This document shows positions 23,796 to 29,577 of a stretch of DNA of 64,000 nt, piece after piece. A program made the position numbers and the translations under genes. The first letter of the stretch is position 1. The number at the start of each line of letters is the position of its first letter. Where the stretch lies: NCBI GenBank assembly GCA_947493265.1, contig CANLQL010000001.1, positions 372,001 to 436,000 on the forward strand. Reading direction: 5' to 3'. This DNA is from an uncultured Litoreibacter sp. Its GTDB lineage: Bacteria > Pseudomonadota > Alphaproteobacteria > Rhodobacterales > Rhodobacteraceae. The notes beneath the pieces are model-generated. The model ran no database searches. It was given only the letters and a program-made list of their open reading frames with translations, and was not told the DNA's origin.

Positions 23796-24749
23796 ATGTC
23801 CAGCAACGCCAAAGGCGCAATTTTTGCGCTAATAGCATTCGGAATTTTCTCAACACATGATGTTTTGATCAAGGTGTTGGGCGGGGCGTATTCGCCTATT
23901 CAGATCGTGTTTTTCATGGTTCTGTTCAGCTTTCCGGTGGCCACACTGTTTTTGATGCGGGATGCGACGCCGGGAACATTGATCCCGAAACATCCCTATT
24001 GGATGGCCGCACGAACTGTTGCGGCGACAATGACGGGGTTTTCAGCGTTCTATGCGTTTTCCGTTTTGCCACTGACGCAGGTCTACGCGATCGTTTTTGC
24101 CTCTCCGTTGTTGATCACCATTCTGGCGATTCCGATCCTTGGTGAGCAGGTACGTCTGCGCAGGTGGCTGGCCGTGATTGTCGGTCTGAGCGGCGTCCTG
24201 ATCGTTCTGCGTCCTGGCAGCGCCGAGTTGGGATTGGGCCATATTGCGGCCCTTGTGGCGGCGGTTTGCGGAGCGTTTGCATCGATTGTCGTGCGCAAGA
24301 TCGGGCGGGAAGAACGCTCCGTCGTGATTATGCTTTATCCGATGATGGTGAATTTCATCGTGATGGGGGCATTGCTGCCGACAGTCTATGTGCCGATGCC
24401 CATCGGGCATTTGGCGTTGGTCGCTGTGGTGGCCCTGATGGCATGGACGGCCGGGCGTTTTCTGATTGCGGCATATAATTCCGGGGAAGCTGCGACGGTG
24501 GCCCCGATGCAGTATTCACAGATTATCTGGGCCACGGCCTACGGGATGCTGTTCTTCAGTGAAACGCCTGATCCCGCAACGATCATCGGGTCCTCCGTGA
24601 TTATTGCGAGCGGGCTATACATCGTGCTGCGCGAAAGCCGGTCGGATGCTTCCGTCAACACGCCGGTGTTGCGCACGCGAAGCCGGCCGGAAACCGGAAC
24701 AACGCCGCGTGTATCCCCCTTTGTTGCCCCGTTTCGATCCAAAAAGTGA
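23796..24749 (+). CDS. DMT (EamA) family transporter
   Basis: The 317-residue protein has ten hydrophobic segments in two EamA repeats (residues about 8-135 and 150-285), typical of drug/metabolite transporters. Substrate cannot be told from sequence. The C-terminal tail is basic and hydrophilic. It starts 71 bases after leuB and is followed within 70 bases by a dioxygenase and a GcvT-type fusion gene, so it may move the substrate or product of those enzymes. Confidence 0.88.
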   Translation: MSSNAKGAIFALIAFGIFSTHDVLIKVLGGAYSPIQIVFFMVLFSFPVATLFLMRDATPGTLIPKHPYWMAARTVAATMTGFSAFYAFSVLPLTQVYAIVFASPLLITILAIPILGEQVRLRRWLAVIVGLSGVLIVLRPGSAELGLGHIAALVAAVCGAFASIVVRKIGREERSVVIMLYPMMVNFIVMGALLPTVYVPMPIGHLALVAVVALMAWTAGRFLIAAYNSGEAATVAPMQYSQIIWATAYGMLFFSETPDPATIIGSSVIIASGLYIVLRESRSDASVNTPVLRTRSRPETGTTPRVSPFVAPFRSKK

Positions 24750-24818
24750 CAGCCCGGGCTTGCCCTGCGCGCCAATCCACGGAACTGTCAGCGCACTGGG
24801 ATTTAGGCGAGGGCGATC

Positions 24819-25619
24819 ATGCATAATTTGCTGACGGAAGATCATGTTGAGGCTTATCAACGCGACGGTGTTGTGCTGATCGAAGGCTTGTTTGCCGATC
24901 ACGTCGATGCCCTTCGTGACGGGATCACGCGCAATATGGACAGGCCGGGTGACTATGCGGCTGAAAATCTGCATCAGGGGGAAAGCGGTCGGTTTTTCGA
25001 TGACTACTGCAATTGGAACCGCATTCCAGAGTTTGAGCAGGTGATCAAAACCGCCCCCGTGGCGGAAGTTGCGGCGGATTTGATGCGCTCGCAAACAGCG
25101 CAGCTTTTCCATGACCATATCCTGATCAAGGAACCGGGGACCAACAAGCCGACCCCTTGGCATCAAGACGGGCCATATTATTTCGTGGAAGGAAGCCAGA
25201 CCGTCAGTTTTTGGACACCGCTTGATCCGGTGCGCGAAGCGACATTGCGTTGCGTGGCTGGATCGCATCATTGGCCAAAACCGGTTTTGCCGATCCGGTG
25301 GTTGTCTGAGGACAGTTTCTATCCAAACGAAGAAGATTACATGCCTGTGCCTGATCCAGACGCGGAAGGGATGGAAATTCGCGAATGGGACATGAAGCCC
25401 GGTGATGCCGTCGCGTTTCATTTCAACATCCTGCACGGGGCCAGGGGCAATCAGACCTCGGACCGGCGTCGCGCGTTTTCGCTGCGCATGGTCGGGGATG
25501 ACGCCCGGTATGTGGAACGTCCTGGAAAAACCTCCCCGCCGTTCCCGGGTCATGGGATGGTTGCGGGTCAGAAACTTCGAGAGGACTGGTTTCCAACGTT
25601 GTTTTCACGTCGCAGCTAG
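24819..25619 (+). CDS. Phytanoyl-CoA dioxygenase (PhyH) family protein
   Basis: This is a 266-residue non-haem iron, 2-oxoglutarate-dependent oxygenase. The iron ligands are seen as His-X-Asp in TPWHQDGPYYF near residue 112 and a distal His in FHFNILHGARGN near residue 205. An Arg for 2-oxoglutarate is in RRRAFSLRMVG. The substrate is unknown. PhyH relatives act on ectoine, methylphosphonate and other small molecules as well as acyl-CoA. The neighbouring DUF1989-GcvT fusion suggests a nitrogenous or methylated substrate. Confidence 0.88.
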   Translation: MHNLLTEDHVEAYQRDGVVLIEGLFADHVDALRDGITRNMDRPGDYAAENLHQGESGRFFDDYCNWNRIPEFEQVIKTAPVAEVAADLMRSQTAQLFHDHILIKEPGTNKPTPWHQDGPYYFVEGSQTVSFWTPLDPVREATLRCVAGSHHWPKPVLPIRWLSEDSFYPNEEDYMPVPDPDAEGMEIREWDMKPGDAVAFHFNILHGARGNQTSDRRRAFSLRMVGDDARYVERPGKTSPPFPGHGMVAGQKLREDWFPTLFSRRS

Positions 25620-25705
25620 AGTGTCAGTCCTGAAAAACTGTCGTTTTTGAAATTGACGGGAAGGCGCTAGCGGGTAGGCTCTTGCTGAAGACCGGAGCAA
25701 ATGAC

Positions 25706-28030
25706 GTGCAGTCAGACCTTCTTTACGCGTTTCAGAACGGCCCCGCGCCTGTGCGGGGGCGCAGCTTTCCCGGATTGCGCGCACCTCACCCTGCGGCTCA
25801 TCTGACAATTGATCCCCGCCGCGCGCAGATGATCGCGCTGCAGACTGGTGATGTGATTTCCATCCTCGGATCCGACCCTGATCACCCGCTAGAGATTTGT
25901 GCATTCGATGCACACGGAAACTCTGCCCTGGGTGGATTAGGCGTGCAGGCGTCCGGATCATTGAGCCAGACCGATTGTGACGTTTCGGAGCTTCTCGCTT
26001 GGATTGCGCGCAACGGTGGAGACCCCTCTGCAGAGATTGCGACTGCAGTGATCCTGTCGGATGAGGATCAATGCGTCTTGAAAGCTGGCACCCCGATGAC
26101 ACTTTGGGCGGCATTGCCTGTGCCGCGAGCAAAGTTGGTGGAGGGGGCGGGGCCGGGTGCCGTATCCCTTTCGGTTAAGAAGGCGGCGCAGAACCACGCG
26201 CTGTTGCCGCCACCGCTTGCAGAGGTACAAGAGGAATTTACCATCAACCGCGCATCGGCGCAGGCGTACGAATTGCGCAAAGGGGACGTGGTTCAGATTA
26301 TCGATGTGGACGGGCAGCAATGCTCAGATTTCATGGCGTTCCGCTCGCGGGGTCTGGAGGCTGGCAGGGAACAGATGATCGACAGCACAGTCACCCGCTC
26401 GATGGTTGGTGGGGCCTATCCCGGTCCTGGTTTGTTTGACAAATTCTTCGACAGTGAGATGCGGCCTTTGTTGAACGTCGTTCAGGATACGGTCGGGCGG
26501 CATGATACCTTTGCGTTGGCCTGCACAGCGCGTGGTTATGAAGAACGTGGGTTTCCGGGCCATGTGAATTGTTCGGACAATATTTCCGACGTTGCCGCGC
26601 CTTACGGTGTCGCGCGGCGCAGCGCCTGGCCTGCCATCAATTTTTTCTTCAACTCCTGGATCAACCCAACTGATAACCGCATCCAATCGGAAGAGGCGCA
26701 GTCCCGTCCGGGGGATTATGTGGCGATGCAGGCAATGGACGATCTTGTCTGCGTCTCAACGGCTTGTCCCGATGATATCGACCCGATCAACGGATGGAAC
26801 CCAACCGATATCCACGTTCGTATCTACCGGCCTGATCAACCCATAAGGCGGGCCATTGCCTACCGAGAAAAGGAAGACGCTTCCGTGTCCATCAGCGAGC
26901 ATTCTGCATTTCATCCCCGCACGTCTGCGCTTACGCAAAACTTTCAACCCGCTCGTGATTTGTGGATGCCCGAAAGCTACCCGTCTGTTGGGTCCACCGG
27001 AGAATACTGGGCCTGCCGGACAGCCGCGACCCTGCAAGACATGAGCAGTCTGCGGAAATACGATATCGCGGGTCCGGATGCCGAAGCCCTTTTGCAGCTG
27101 GTGATGACACGTGATGTGGCGAAGCTGGCGCAGTGGCGGGGGACCTACGCGCTGATCTGCGACGCACAAGGGTCTGTTGTCGATGACGGCACGCTCTTTC
27201 ATATCGGGCCGCATCTTTACCGGTGGTGCTGTGGCACCGAAGAAAGCGGACGCGTGTTGGCGGCCATCGCTGCGGAGCACGGGTTTCACGTGCGCATCAA
27301 AGACATGCGATCTTCAATGCCGAACCTTGCGCTTCAGGGCCCGAAGTCGCGCGATATTTTGCGCGGTTTGGTCTTCACCCAACCTCATGTCCCCGGTCTG
27401 GATGATCTGAAATGGTTCGGCGTGACGATGGCCCGTCTTAAAGACCGCGAAGGTGTCCCGTTCATGCTGGCGCGCTCCGGCTATACCGGGGAGTTGGGGT
27501 ATGAGCTGTTCTGCGACAAATCAGGGGCGGTTGCGCTTTGGGATGCTGTGATGGAGGCGGGAGCTTCCCATGGCCTAAAGCCAATGGGCGGCACAGCGCT
27601 CGAGACGATCCGGATCGAAGCAGGTCTCGCCGCTGCGGGGGCAGAGTTTGCGCCAGATGTAGATGCGTTTGAGGCAGGGCTAGGCTTTGCGGTTGATCTG
27701 CGCAAAACTGATTTCATCGGAAAAGCTGCGTTGGAGCGCAATGCGAAAGACCCTCGCCGCGTTCTGAAAGGGATGATTTTGGACGGCGATGATGTGCCGT
27801 CCCATGGTGCGCATGTTTATTGCGGTGAACGGCCGGTTGGGGTTGTGACCTCGGCCACGCGGTCGCCCACGCATGAAACGGCGATAGCAATTGTGCGCTT
27901 GGCAGTGGAACATTCAAGCACCGAAACCCGTCTGGAGATCGGCCAGATGGATGGCCATATGAAGCGGCTGTCTGGTCGTGTCTGTGACATCCCGTTTGTC
28001 GATCCAACCCGCAGTCGTGCCCGCGCGTGA
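25706..28030 (+). CDS. DUF1989-aminomethyltransferase (GcvT) fusion protein
   Basis: The 774-residue multidomain protein starts at GTG 25706, chosen for GGAG eight bases upstream. Residues about 20-150 look like a diverged copy of the DUF1989 fold. Residues about 165-390 are DUF1989 (urea-carboxylase-associated), with VDGQQCSDFMAF, HVNCSDNISDVA and INFFFNSWINPTDNR. Residues about 400-774 are a tetrahydrofolate-binding GcvT domain, with STGEYWACRTAATL, ARSGYTGELGYELF and KTDFIGKAALERN. GcvT relatives move a one-carbon unit from an amine or sulfonium to folate. The reaction here is unknown; DmdA-like or N-methyl-compound demethylation is possible. Confidence 0.85.
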   Translation: MQSDLLYAFQNGPAPVRGRSFPGLRAPHPAAHLTIDPRRAQMIALQTGDVISILGSDPDHPLEICAFDAHGNSALGGLGVQASGSLSQTDCDVSELLAWIARNGGDPSAEIATAVILSDEDQCVLKAGTPMTLWAALPVPRAKLVEGAGPGAVSLSVKKAAQNHALLPPPLAEVQEEFTINRASAQAYELRKGDVVQIIDVDGQQCSDFMAFRSRGLEAGREQMIDSTVTRSMVGGAYPGPGLFDKFFDSEMRPLLNVVQDTVGRHDTFALACTARGYEERGFPGHVNCSDNISDVAAPYGVARRSAWPAINFFFNSWINPTDNRIQSEEAQSRPGDYVAMQAMDDLVCVSTACPDDIDPINGWNPTDIHVRIYRPDQPIRRAIAYREKEDASVSISEHSAFHPRTSALTQNFQPARDLWMPESYPSVGSTGEYWACRTAATLQDMSSLRKYDIAGPDAEALLQLVMTRDVAKLAQWRGTYALICDAQGSVVDDGTLFHIGPHLYRWCCGTEESGRVLAAIAAEHGFHVRIKDMRSSMPNLALQGPKSRDILRGLVFTQPHVPGLDDLKWFGVTMARLKDREGVPFMLARSGYTGELGYELFCDKSGAVALWDAVMEAGASHGLKPMGGTALETIRIEAGLAAAGAEFAPDVDAFEAGLGFAVDLRKTDFIGKAALERNAKDPRRVLKGMILDGDDVPSHGAHVYCGERPVGVVTSATRSPTHETAIAIVRLAVEHSSTETRLEIGQMDGHMKRLSGRVCDIPFVDPTRSRARA

Positions 28031-28428
28031 ACGGATATGAAGGTGACAGCTTCTTTACCCTGACCGGGGTGCAGCAAGTTGGATTGCTTGGGGTTACCGC
28101 GGTCCTTTCGCTATTGATGGTCACGATTGTCGCGCGCGCTGGGCGTCCGTTGCCCTGGCTTGTTGGCATGGGTCTCAGCTTGTTGGCATTTTATCTATTC
28201 GTTTGGTTGTCGCCTCAGATTTACTATGCGTACTACCGGCAAATCTTCGACGGGTTGCCCCGTCAATGGGTCGTCGGCTTGCCGCCCAGCCCGATGGTTC
28301 CGATCAAGATGCTGATATTTTCGTCGCAGCACAACCTGTCCCATCATGGTCAAGGCTTACTTGGGTGGCTGATGATCCTCGCACCGCTCGTCGTCCGATG
28401 GCGCAAGGCCGTAGGGCGCGACGAGTGA
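28027..28428 (+). CDS. Small membrane protein of unknown function
   Basis: The 133-residue protein starts at GTG 28027, overlapping the stop of the GcvT fusion (GTGA), so it is probably translationally coupled to it. There are three or four hydrophobic segments (residues 15-36, 42-62, 100-122), and the tail is basic. No family is recognised. The last 72 bases overlap the 3' end of the convergent bciB gene. Confidence 0.75.
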   Translation: MNGYEGDSFFTLTGVQQVGLLGVTAVLSLLMVTIVARAGRPLPWLVGMGLSLLAFYLFVWLSPQIYYAYYRQIFDGLPRQWVVGLPPSPMVPIKMLIFSSQHNLSHHGQGLLGWLMILAPLVVRWRKAVGRDE

Positions 28429-29577
28429 CCAGACGTGATCCGGCACCATGTTTTTCATACGGGCGGCGTGTTCGCGGCGCAGGTGCAATACAGTTTCTAT
28501 TGCCTTCATCTCTACCCGTGCGCGGGCAAACTCCAGTCCTTTCGGGCCGATTTTCGGCATCAACCAACCCATAAAGCCGCGCATGAAGTCAGGCATTTTG
28601 CGCAAGGGAAGCCCGCCGGAGGCGCGTTTCGTATTTTCCATGAACCCTTTGACCGGGCCGTTGCGTTTGCCGCTTGATCCGAGCGGGTCCAACCTGACCA
28701 AATCACCAAGTGCATCAAGCATTTCCTGACCGCGGTCATTTCGCACGACCAGCCATTGGTCGCCTTGCCCGGCCATGTAGCCCACGGTGATGTCCGCAAG
28801 AACGTTGGTATAGTCGACGCAGGTTCGGCAGGTCACCGGGAAGAAGTCACCGGGCAGGTCTGACAGCGGCAGCTTGAGAAACGGGATATCTTTTCTTGTG
28901 CCGTCGTCAAACCGTAGTTCCACATGATAGTCCGCGCGAAATTCCAGATAGTTGATGGTGTCCGGACGGTCGGACAGGCGGGCCAGAAATTCGTGGAAAT
29001 TGGCTGTGGTGGTATTGTCAGAACATGGCGTGCCAATCACGTAGATCCGATCAAACCCCAGTTTTTCCTCGATCGCGCGCAGGGCGTAGACCTGACACGG
29101 GATGCCGATCATTGCGATGCGTTTGAACCCTTTTTCTGCGGCAGTTTCCAGCAAGGCCAGAACCGGGGCGTAGCCCATACGCATTCCGCGCGCGTTCTGC
29201 ATCCCCTCGGGAGAGGTCACCAGAATAGGCTGTGGCTTCCAGCGGTCGTCAGGGTCGGGACCCACGCATAAGACCGCCTCGACCTGGCCGTTTTTCAGCA
29301 GAGTTTCGGCAAGCTTCGTCGTGAGCCCGGTCCATTGTGCACCAGGTTCGGGTTGCTTCAAGGCCGCGCGGTGCATGGATTTGAAGGGACCAAAGAATTG
29401 TTCATCCCCACCGCCACGGGTCCGCCCATGCACTTGAGTTTCCAAAGTCGGGTAGTCGGGTTGTATAAACTGGCAGGCCTGACCGCAGGACTTTGCTATT
29501 TTCATCCGCGATAGACCACAATCCGTGCACAGGTTTCGAGCAGCGGGTTGCGGCAGTATCGGGGCGGTGACGCTCAT
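28357..29577 (-). CDS. bciB: 3,8-divinyl (proto)chlorophyllide 8-vinyl reductase, BciB type
   Basis: BciB reduces the C8 vinyl group of the pigment precursor using ferredoxin. It belongs to the coenzyme F420 hydrogenase/dehydrogenase beta-subunit family. The 406-residue protein has N-terminal cysteines in NLCTDCGLSR and KSCGQACQF for an iron-sulfur cluster. More follow in MIGIPCQVYALR, IGTPCSDNTT and FPVTCRTCVDYTN. General FrhB-family membership is certain. The BciB role is inferred from the cysteine pattern, the length and the phototrophic genome. It lies about 9.5 kb from the photosynthesis cluster. Confidence 0.8.
   Translation of the reverse strand: MSVTAPILPQPAARNLCTDCGLSRMKIAKSCGQACQFIQPDYPTLETQVHGRTRGGGDEQFFGPFKSMHRAALKQPEPGAQWTGLTTKLAETLLKNGQVEAVLCVGPDPDDRWKPQPILVTSPEGMQNARGMRMGYAPVLALLETAAEKGFKRIAMIGIPCQVYALRAIEEKLGFDRIYVIGTPCSDNTTTANFHEFLARLSDRPDTINYLEFRADYHVELRFDDGTRKDIPFLKLPLSDLPGDFFPVTCRTCVDYTNVLADITVGYMAGQGDQWLVVRNDRGQEMLDALGDLVRLDPLGSSGKRNGPVKGFMENTKRASGGLPLRKMPDFMRGFMGWLMPKIGPKGLEFARARVEMKAIETVLHLRREHAARMKNMVPDHVWSLVAPYGLAPSDDERCEDHQPPK

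Follow-up and report, generated by a model that had tools for sequence, protein, structure and literature searches.

Tdm2, a sister clade of trimethylamine N-oxide demethylase usually encoded with a LacI-type regulator and an ATP-binding cassette importer, found without these partners in an uncultured Litoreibacter sp.

What does a 774-residue protein do that joins a DUF1989 domain to a GcvT domain, and does it act together with the genes on either side of it? The question is raised by a gene in a stretch of 64,000 nucleotides (the window) from an uncultured Litoreibacter sp. (GenBank assembly GCA_947493265.1, contig CANLQL010000001.1, positions 372,001 to 436,000, forward strand). Seawater contains methylated nitrogen and sulfur solutes that are important as labile compounds, and an earlier note on this DNA had taken the fusion gene and three neighbors for a possible, undescribed module that takes up, hydroxylates and demethylates such a compound. 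The fusion belongs to a sister clade of trimethylamine N-oxide (TMAO) demethylase (Tdm), a known architecture in a new clade with an operon of its own. The clade of the window fusion is here named Tdm2 and that of the TMAO demethylase true Tdm. We lean slightly toward the view that Tdm2 usually forms part of a LacI-linked operon for uptake and demethylation, with a substrate that is probably not mainly TMAO. The gene and its domains lie in the window as follows.

25706-28030, + strand: tdm2, the central gene; open reading frame (ORF) with GTG start, 774 amino acids, Tdm-clade DUF1989-GcvT fusion
25781-26191, + strand: N-terminal diverged DUF1989-like domain of tdm2, residues 26-162 (hhalign against the DUF1989 region)
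26240-26749, + strand: DUF1989 Pfam match of tdm2; ligands C354 and D357 lie just beyond the match
26912-28003, + strand: GCV_T and GCV_T_C domains of tdm2

The longest ORF of the fusion has a TTG start at 25682. The Pfam matches scored 140.1 bits for DUF1989, 200.9 bits for GCV_T and 48.7 bits for GCV_T_C. The best NCBIfam model was trimethylamine N-oxide demethylase (NF053776) at 1048.8 bits, under the curated cut-off of 1100. Among solved proteins, Tdm (PDB 9q59) was the closest in sequence, with a full-length alignment and an E-value of 5e-179. The DUF1989-GcvT architecture is thus already known, as is also evident from PMC12560246, and the term undescribed was not borne out. Tdm of M. silvestris (PDB 9q59, 9q5a and 9q5l) has the domain order, the DUF1989-like N-terminal domain and the metal ligands of the window Tdm2; these entries are not among the fold-search matches listed for Tdm2. 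The suspected second, diverged copy of DUF1989 was supported: the profile of residues 26-162 aligned with the DUF1989 region across 54 columns at a probability of 80.6%, whereas the GcvT region, taken as control, gave 0.2%, and an AlphaFold analysis of M. silvestris Tdm described a third, DUF1989-like domain (PMC12560246). As in Tdm, the DUF1989-like, DUF1989 and GcvT domains all lie within one chain. The fusion scored below the cut-offs of TIGR03424, a urea-amidolyase-associated model (85.2 bits), of the GcvT model PRK00389 (221.5 bits, cut-off 300) and of the model for DmdA, the dimethylsulfoniopropionate (DMSP) demethylase (142.3 bits, cut-off 410). GcvT and DmdA carry out folate-dependent methyl or aminomethyl transfer, whereas the GcvT domain of the window differs from them and is fused to DUF1989. 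To our knowledge, Tdm is the only known enzyme of the DUF1989-GcvT kind.

The tree and alignment were built from 71 of 100 full-length fusion reads that remained after removal of duplicates; 72 rows were used, with window copies left out and the window protein and the M. silvestris chain added. Tdm2 (40 sequences) and Tdm (32 sequences) fall on two sides of one branch with a support of 100 (SH-aLRT, quick method), and the window protein lies on the side opposite to Tdm. The NF053776 cut-off of 1100 bits splits the clades in the same way, with all nine scored Tdm2 proteins under it, by only 7 to 75 bits, and all three scored Tdm proteins above it. The window's genome contains a second full fusion (G000:C2:380512; 41% identical), which at 1213.4 bits is a true Tdm and lies near genes of the flavin-containing monooxygenase (FMO), glutamine synthetase and MttB types; the former two are predicted from family and context to be Tmm and GmaS. 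The MttB-family gene (L004:12039-13571, G000:C2; 655 bits), which has the true Tdm on one side and the Tmm-like gene on the other, scored 230.7 bits against a cut-off of 525 on the pyrrolysine trimethylamine methyltransferase model. Tdm2 is present in 19 of 394 genomes of the family, the window's own included, and in 2 of 20 genus-mates; named carriers include Cognatishimia, Amylibacter, Jannaschia, Planktomarina, Paracoccus, Roseibium and a Granulosicoccaceae metagenome-assembled genome (MAG). No report of a second Tdm clade was found in the openly licensed literature, which is weak evidence of absence.

The window tdm2 is an open frame with all published metal ligands. Its D208, C273, H286, C289, C354 and D357 correspond to the published Zn/Fe ligands D198, C263, H276, C279, C343 and D346, of which five do not vary in any of the 72 sequences; D346 is retained by 39 of 40 Tdm2 and 31 of 32 Tdm proteins. 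Because these ligands are kept, Tdm2 is likely to demethylate its substrate. Changes from Tdm to Tdm2 that are fixed by clade include Y237 to F247, Y273 to F283, R194 to Q204 and A350 to I361. The folate positions differ from those of folate-dependent GcvT. L618 and F487 of M. silvestris Tdm were equated with R223 and Y101 of E. coli GcvT, which contact tetrahydrofolate (THF), in PMC12560246, where a slight effect of THF on formaldehyde release by Tdm is also reported from earlier work; the aligned residues of the window Tdm2 are G629 and F498. With Gly and Phe in place of Arg and Tyr, and a slight THF effect in Tdm, a role of folate in Tdm2 appears doubtful, yet possible. The proposal that one carbon is fed to folate therefore finds no support in G629 and F498, and the alignment counts against folate binding as a partial refutation only.

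The context of the gene was surveyed at 39 other distinct Tdm2 members; a partial Tdm2 (L115), at whose locus ProV, ProW and the binding protein were found, was left out. A divergent LacI gene was found at 28 of these loci, an OpuAC-type binding protein at 27, ProV at 28 and ProW at 27. All four are present at 25 of the 39 loci (25 of the 33 with enough flank), and such a LacI-ABC operon is typical of Tdm2 relatives and not of true Tdm. Cultured bacteria with this operon include Cognatishimia sp. SS12 and Paracoccus zeaxanthinifaciens. Most relatives do pair the fusion with a transporter, as had been expected, but it is an ATP-binding cassette (ABC) importer of the betaine/TMAO/DMSP type and not a drug/metabolite transporter (DMT/EamA). 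The palindrome TGTAN6TACA occurs upstream of tdm2 at 26 of the 39 loci, with more than one copy at 14; paired copies are often 21-33 bases apart (e.g., L099:7939-7976), and the locus of this example, L099, has two sites versus 0.02 expected. The palindrome was absent at 7 of 7 true-Tdm loci examined. It is a candidate operator at which the divergent LacI may act. No conserved next enzyme follows the operon in the surveyed loci, where non-operon clusters span at most three loci. In the window, no LacI gene, operator or importer stands beside tdm2; there is no exact match to the palindrome, and the sole match with one mismatch lies away from tdm2, at chance expectation. A sigma-70 scan of the region found 0 sites versus 2.4 expected, which carries no information on promoters.

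The importer of the relatives was analyzed through 29 distinct binding proteins of the 38 found, which fall into three clades. It shares the OpuAC family, the fold and the Trp/Tyr cage with TmoXWV, DmpXWV and ProU (importers of TMAO, DMSP and glycine betaine, respectively), none of which has a counterpart beside the window Tdm2. The cage (three Trp and one Tyr) is present in 29 of 29 proteins, which would suit an onium ligand. By profile the operon binding protein is distant from TmoX (1.6e-11), DmpX (2.1e-17) and ProX (3.4e-17). In TmoX, a Glu (E131) binds the N-oxide, and in PMC8918994 the E114A exchange abolished binding by TmoX of HTCC1062. In contrast, the residue that aligns with DmpX E113, the probable equivalent of TmoX E131, is not Glu in any of the 29 operon binding proteins.

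A profile of 61 genomes, chosen from listed rows and not at random, comprised 21 with Tdm2 (8 of them also with true Tdm), 21 with true Tdm but no Tdm2 and 19 that lacked both. Tmm, encoded by the marker gene of the trimethylamine (TMA) pathway (tmm), was found in 29 of 29 genomes with true Tdm, in 0 of 13 with Tdm2 only and in 0 of 19 with neither, so that Tdm occurs with tmm and the Tdm2 clade is decoupled from it. GmaS-like proteins followed with 27/29, 2/13 and 3/19, and PF11927 (at least 210 bits) with 16/29, 0/13 and 0/19. The window's genome has Tmm, beside its true Tdm. In another genome with both Tdm and Tdm2, the GmaS-like gene (G220:C123:7626-8944) is in two pieces, one with an internal TGA.

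The genes that surround tdm2 in the window are listed below; their positions confirm the four same-strand genes, with gaps of 69 and 86 bases and then a 4-base overlap.

23796-24749, + strand: EamA transporter gene; ORF, Pfam EamA in two stretches
24819-25619, + strand: PhyH-family gene; ORF, Pfam PhyH; adjoins tdm2 in this genome
28027-28428, + strand: small membrane protein gene, 133 amino acids; resident flank, overlaps the end of tdm2 by 4 bases
28357-29577, - strand: FrhB/FdhB-type protein gene (coenzyme F420 hydrogenase beta-subunit domains; Pfam)

Adjacency was scored for window-type EamA and PhyH (more than 40% identity) within 2.5 kb upstream of Tdm2 on the same strand, and for the membrane protein, which has no Pfam family, as any match 2 to 3.5 kb downstream on the same strand. 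By this measure none of the three adjoins Tdm2 at any of the 39 other distinct loci, the nearest exception at these loci being a PhyH-family match of 23% at L108, which is encoded on the other strand, 4.2 kb upstream. Linkage in relatives had been set beforehand as the test of the module, which these counts refute. Three genus-mates without Tdm2 (G001, G010 and G012) keep the LeuB-EamA order, followed by a cupin-like ORF and the membrane protein, with an ABC protein and Asd further on; PhyH and tdm2 thus take the position that the cupin-like ORF has in these mates. In all three genus-mates that have both EamA and the membrane protein in the fetched stretch, the two are near each other although Tdm2 is absent; in four others (G005, G006, G017 and G018) EamA was outside it. 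Of 20 genus-mates, 19 have a homologue of the membrane protein. Both this protein and EamA are resident flanks, outside the Tdm2 system. The cupin-like ORF (about 220 amino acids, named by eye) lies between EamA and the membrane protein at L143, L144 and L145. At E-values up to 1e-30, PhyH matches were obtained in 175 of the family's 394 genomes, and 8 PhyH loci examined had no conserved neighborhood beyond a LysR-like gene in two. The nearest solved relative of PhyH is MysH (E-value 5.7e-27), and the PhyH residues H115, D117, H206 and R218 are invariant or nearly so in 9 sequences; we take them to have the roles of the conserved D, H and R residues of the family. PhyH is a possible partner of tdm2.

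In the favored scheme for Tdm2, LacI diverges from tdm2, behind which come the OpuAC-type binding protein and the subunits of the ProV and ProW type; a solute of the methylated onium or oxide kind would be bound in the aromatic cage, imported and demethylated at the DUF1989 Fe/Zn center, with formaldehyde probably released near the GcvT domain, as in Tdm. In the window's genome, tdm2 appears without its operon partners, next to PhyH and between the resident EamA and membrane protein, and the partners were probably lost at this locus rather than the gene having arrived bare. We give an even chance to the fuller proposal that Tdm2 and its LacI-ABC genes make up a system, found mainly in marine bacteria of the Rhodobacterales type, that takes up and demethylates an osmolyte which is a methylated onium or oxide compound but not TMAO; candidates include other amine N-oxides and sulfoxonium compounds such as dimethylsulfoxonium propionate (DMSOP). 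TMAO as main substrate is disfavored by the Tmm, GmaS and PF11927 profile and by the Glu position of the binding protein. Several points weigh against the favored scheme. The full operon is missing at 14 of 39 Tdm2 loci, in part owing to short contigs; eight genomes hold Tdm and Tdm2 together with Tmm; 17 of the 29 binding proteins have a non-aligned Glu three residues before the TmoX-Glu position; the binding-protein fold is about equally close to TmoX, ProX and DmpX; and genomes with Tdm2 only could cleave TMAO and excrete dimethylamine. Concerning the exclusion of PhyH, it is found in 12 of 19 Tdm2 genomes versus 163 of 375 others (p 0.10), and G249 has an orthologue on the strand opposite to Tdm2, some 8 kb away, so a loose link between PhyH and Tdm2 may exist.

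Tdm2 could instead be another TMAO demethylase under different regulation, yielding formaldehyde for energy and dimethylamine for excretion; this is unlikely but the most serious of the alternatives. With dimethylamine excreted, Tmm, Dmm and GmaS would be unnecessary, and PMC8918994 describes SAR11 HTCC1062 as having tdm without a dmmDABC homologue; the metal ligands shared with Tdm, the small shortfall of the nine scored proteins and the closeness of the importer fold to TmoX agree with it. Against it stand the rarity of GmaS-like proteins and lack of Tmm in Tdm2-only genomes, the clade-fixed changes, which lie near the metal site, the absence of Glu from the TmoX-type position and the retention of both enzymes in eight genomes. 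A different reaction, such as C-N or C-S cleavage of a zwitterion (for example a sulfonate) without demethylation, is improbable. The TIGR03424 score of the DUF1989 part and a CuyA cysteate sulfo-lyase gene inside the Tdm2 operon at 2 of 39 loci (L087 and L113) point toward it, whereas the full-length alignment to Tdm and the kept ligands do not, and CuyA above the cut-off was found in 11 of 21 Tdm2 genomes, 7 of 21 with Tdm only and 6 of 19 with neither (11/21 vs 13/40, p 0.17). Least probable is the four-gene module, with EamA as importer, PhyH as hydroxylase, the fusion as demethylase and the membrane protein in a helper role. It draws on the short gaps on one strand, the intact PhyH residues and the frequency of PhyH among Tdm2 genomes, but was rejected on linkage: none of the three adjoins Tdm2 at the 39 other loci, where the L108 match comes nearest, EamA and the membrane protein stay together without Tdm2 and PhyH has no conserved neighborhood. 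What stands of the earlier view is a demethylase of a methylated marine solute, a reading in keeping with the intact metal site and with homology to Tdm, and not the EamA/PhyH pathway drawn around it.

If the favored scheme for Tdm2 is true, metal-center demethylation of the Tdm kind would extend beyond TMAO. A clade that has a regulator, operator sites and an importer of its own, and that occurs in genomes without the TMA pathway, indicates a solute with no assigned route of breakdown, and the small, cloneable operon offers a handle for finding it. Caution is advised in annotating such genes as TMAO demethylase, given that nine scored proteins fall just below the curated cut-off.

The 3' end of the FrhB/FdhB-type gene of the window overlaps the end of the membrane-protein gene, and a 66% relative of its product is encoded near the true Tdm of genome G021. 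At L113:6820-14108 (a Rhodospirillales MAG) and L087 (G328), CuyA is placed between Tdm2 and the importer genes. A link of CuyA and cysteate to Tdm2 was considered, on the basis of the two operons and an importer of the same type, and was not used for the verdict in view of the weak genome-wide association. In the window's genome, CuyA scored 526.5 bits (cut-off 450), and a related importer in a row with it lies about 27 kb past the end of the window (binding protein 49%, ProV 60%, ProW 51%). This row (L142:7422-12905; G000:C1, about 462.4-467.9 kb) comprises CuyA, an OpuAC binding protein, ProV, ProW and an alpha/beta hydrolase, adjoined by a divergent LysR gene, and looks like an operon for cysteate uptake and desulfonation; the tested cysteate importer of R. 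pomeroyi is cuyTUVW (SPO3040-3043), according to PMC10130141.

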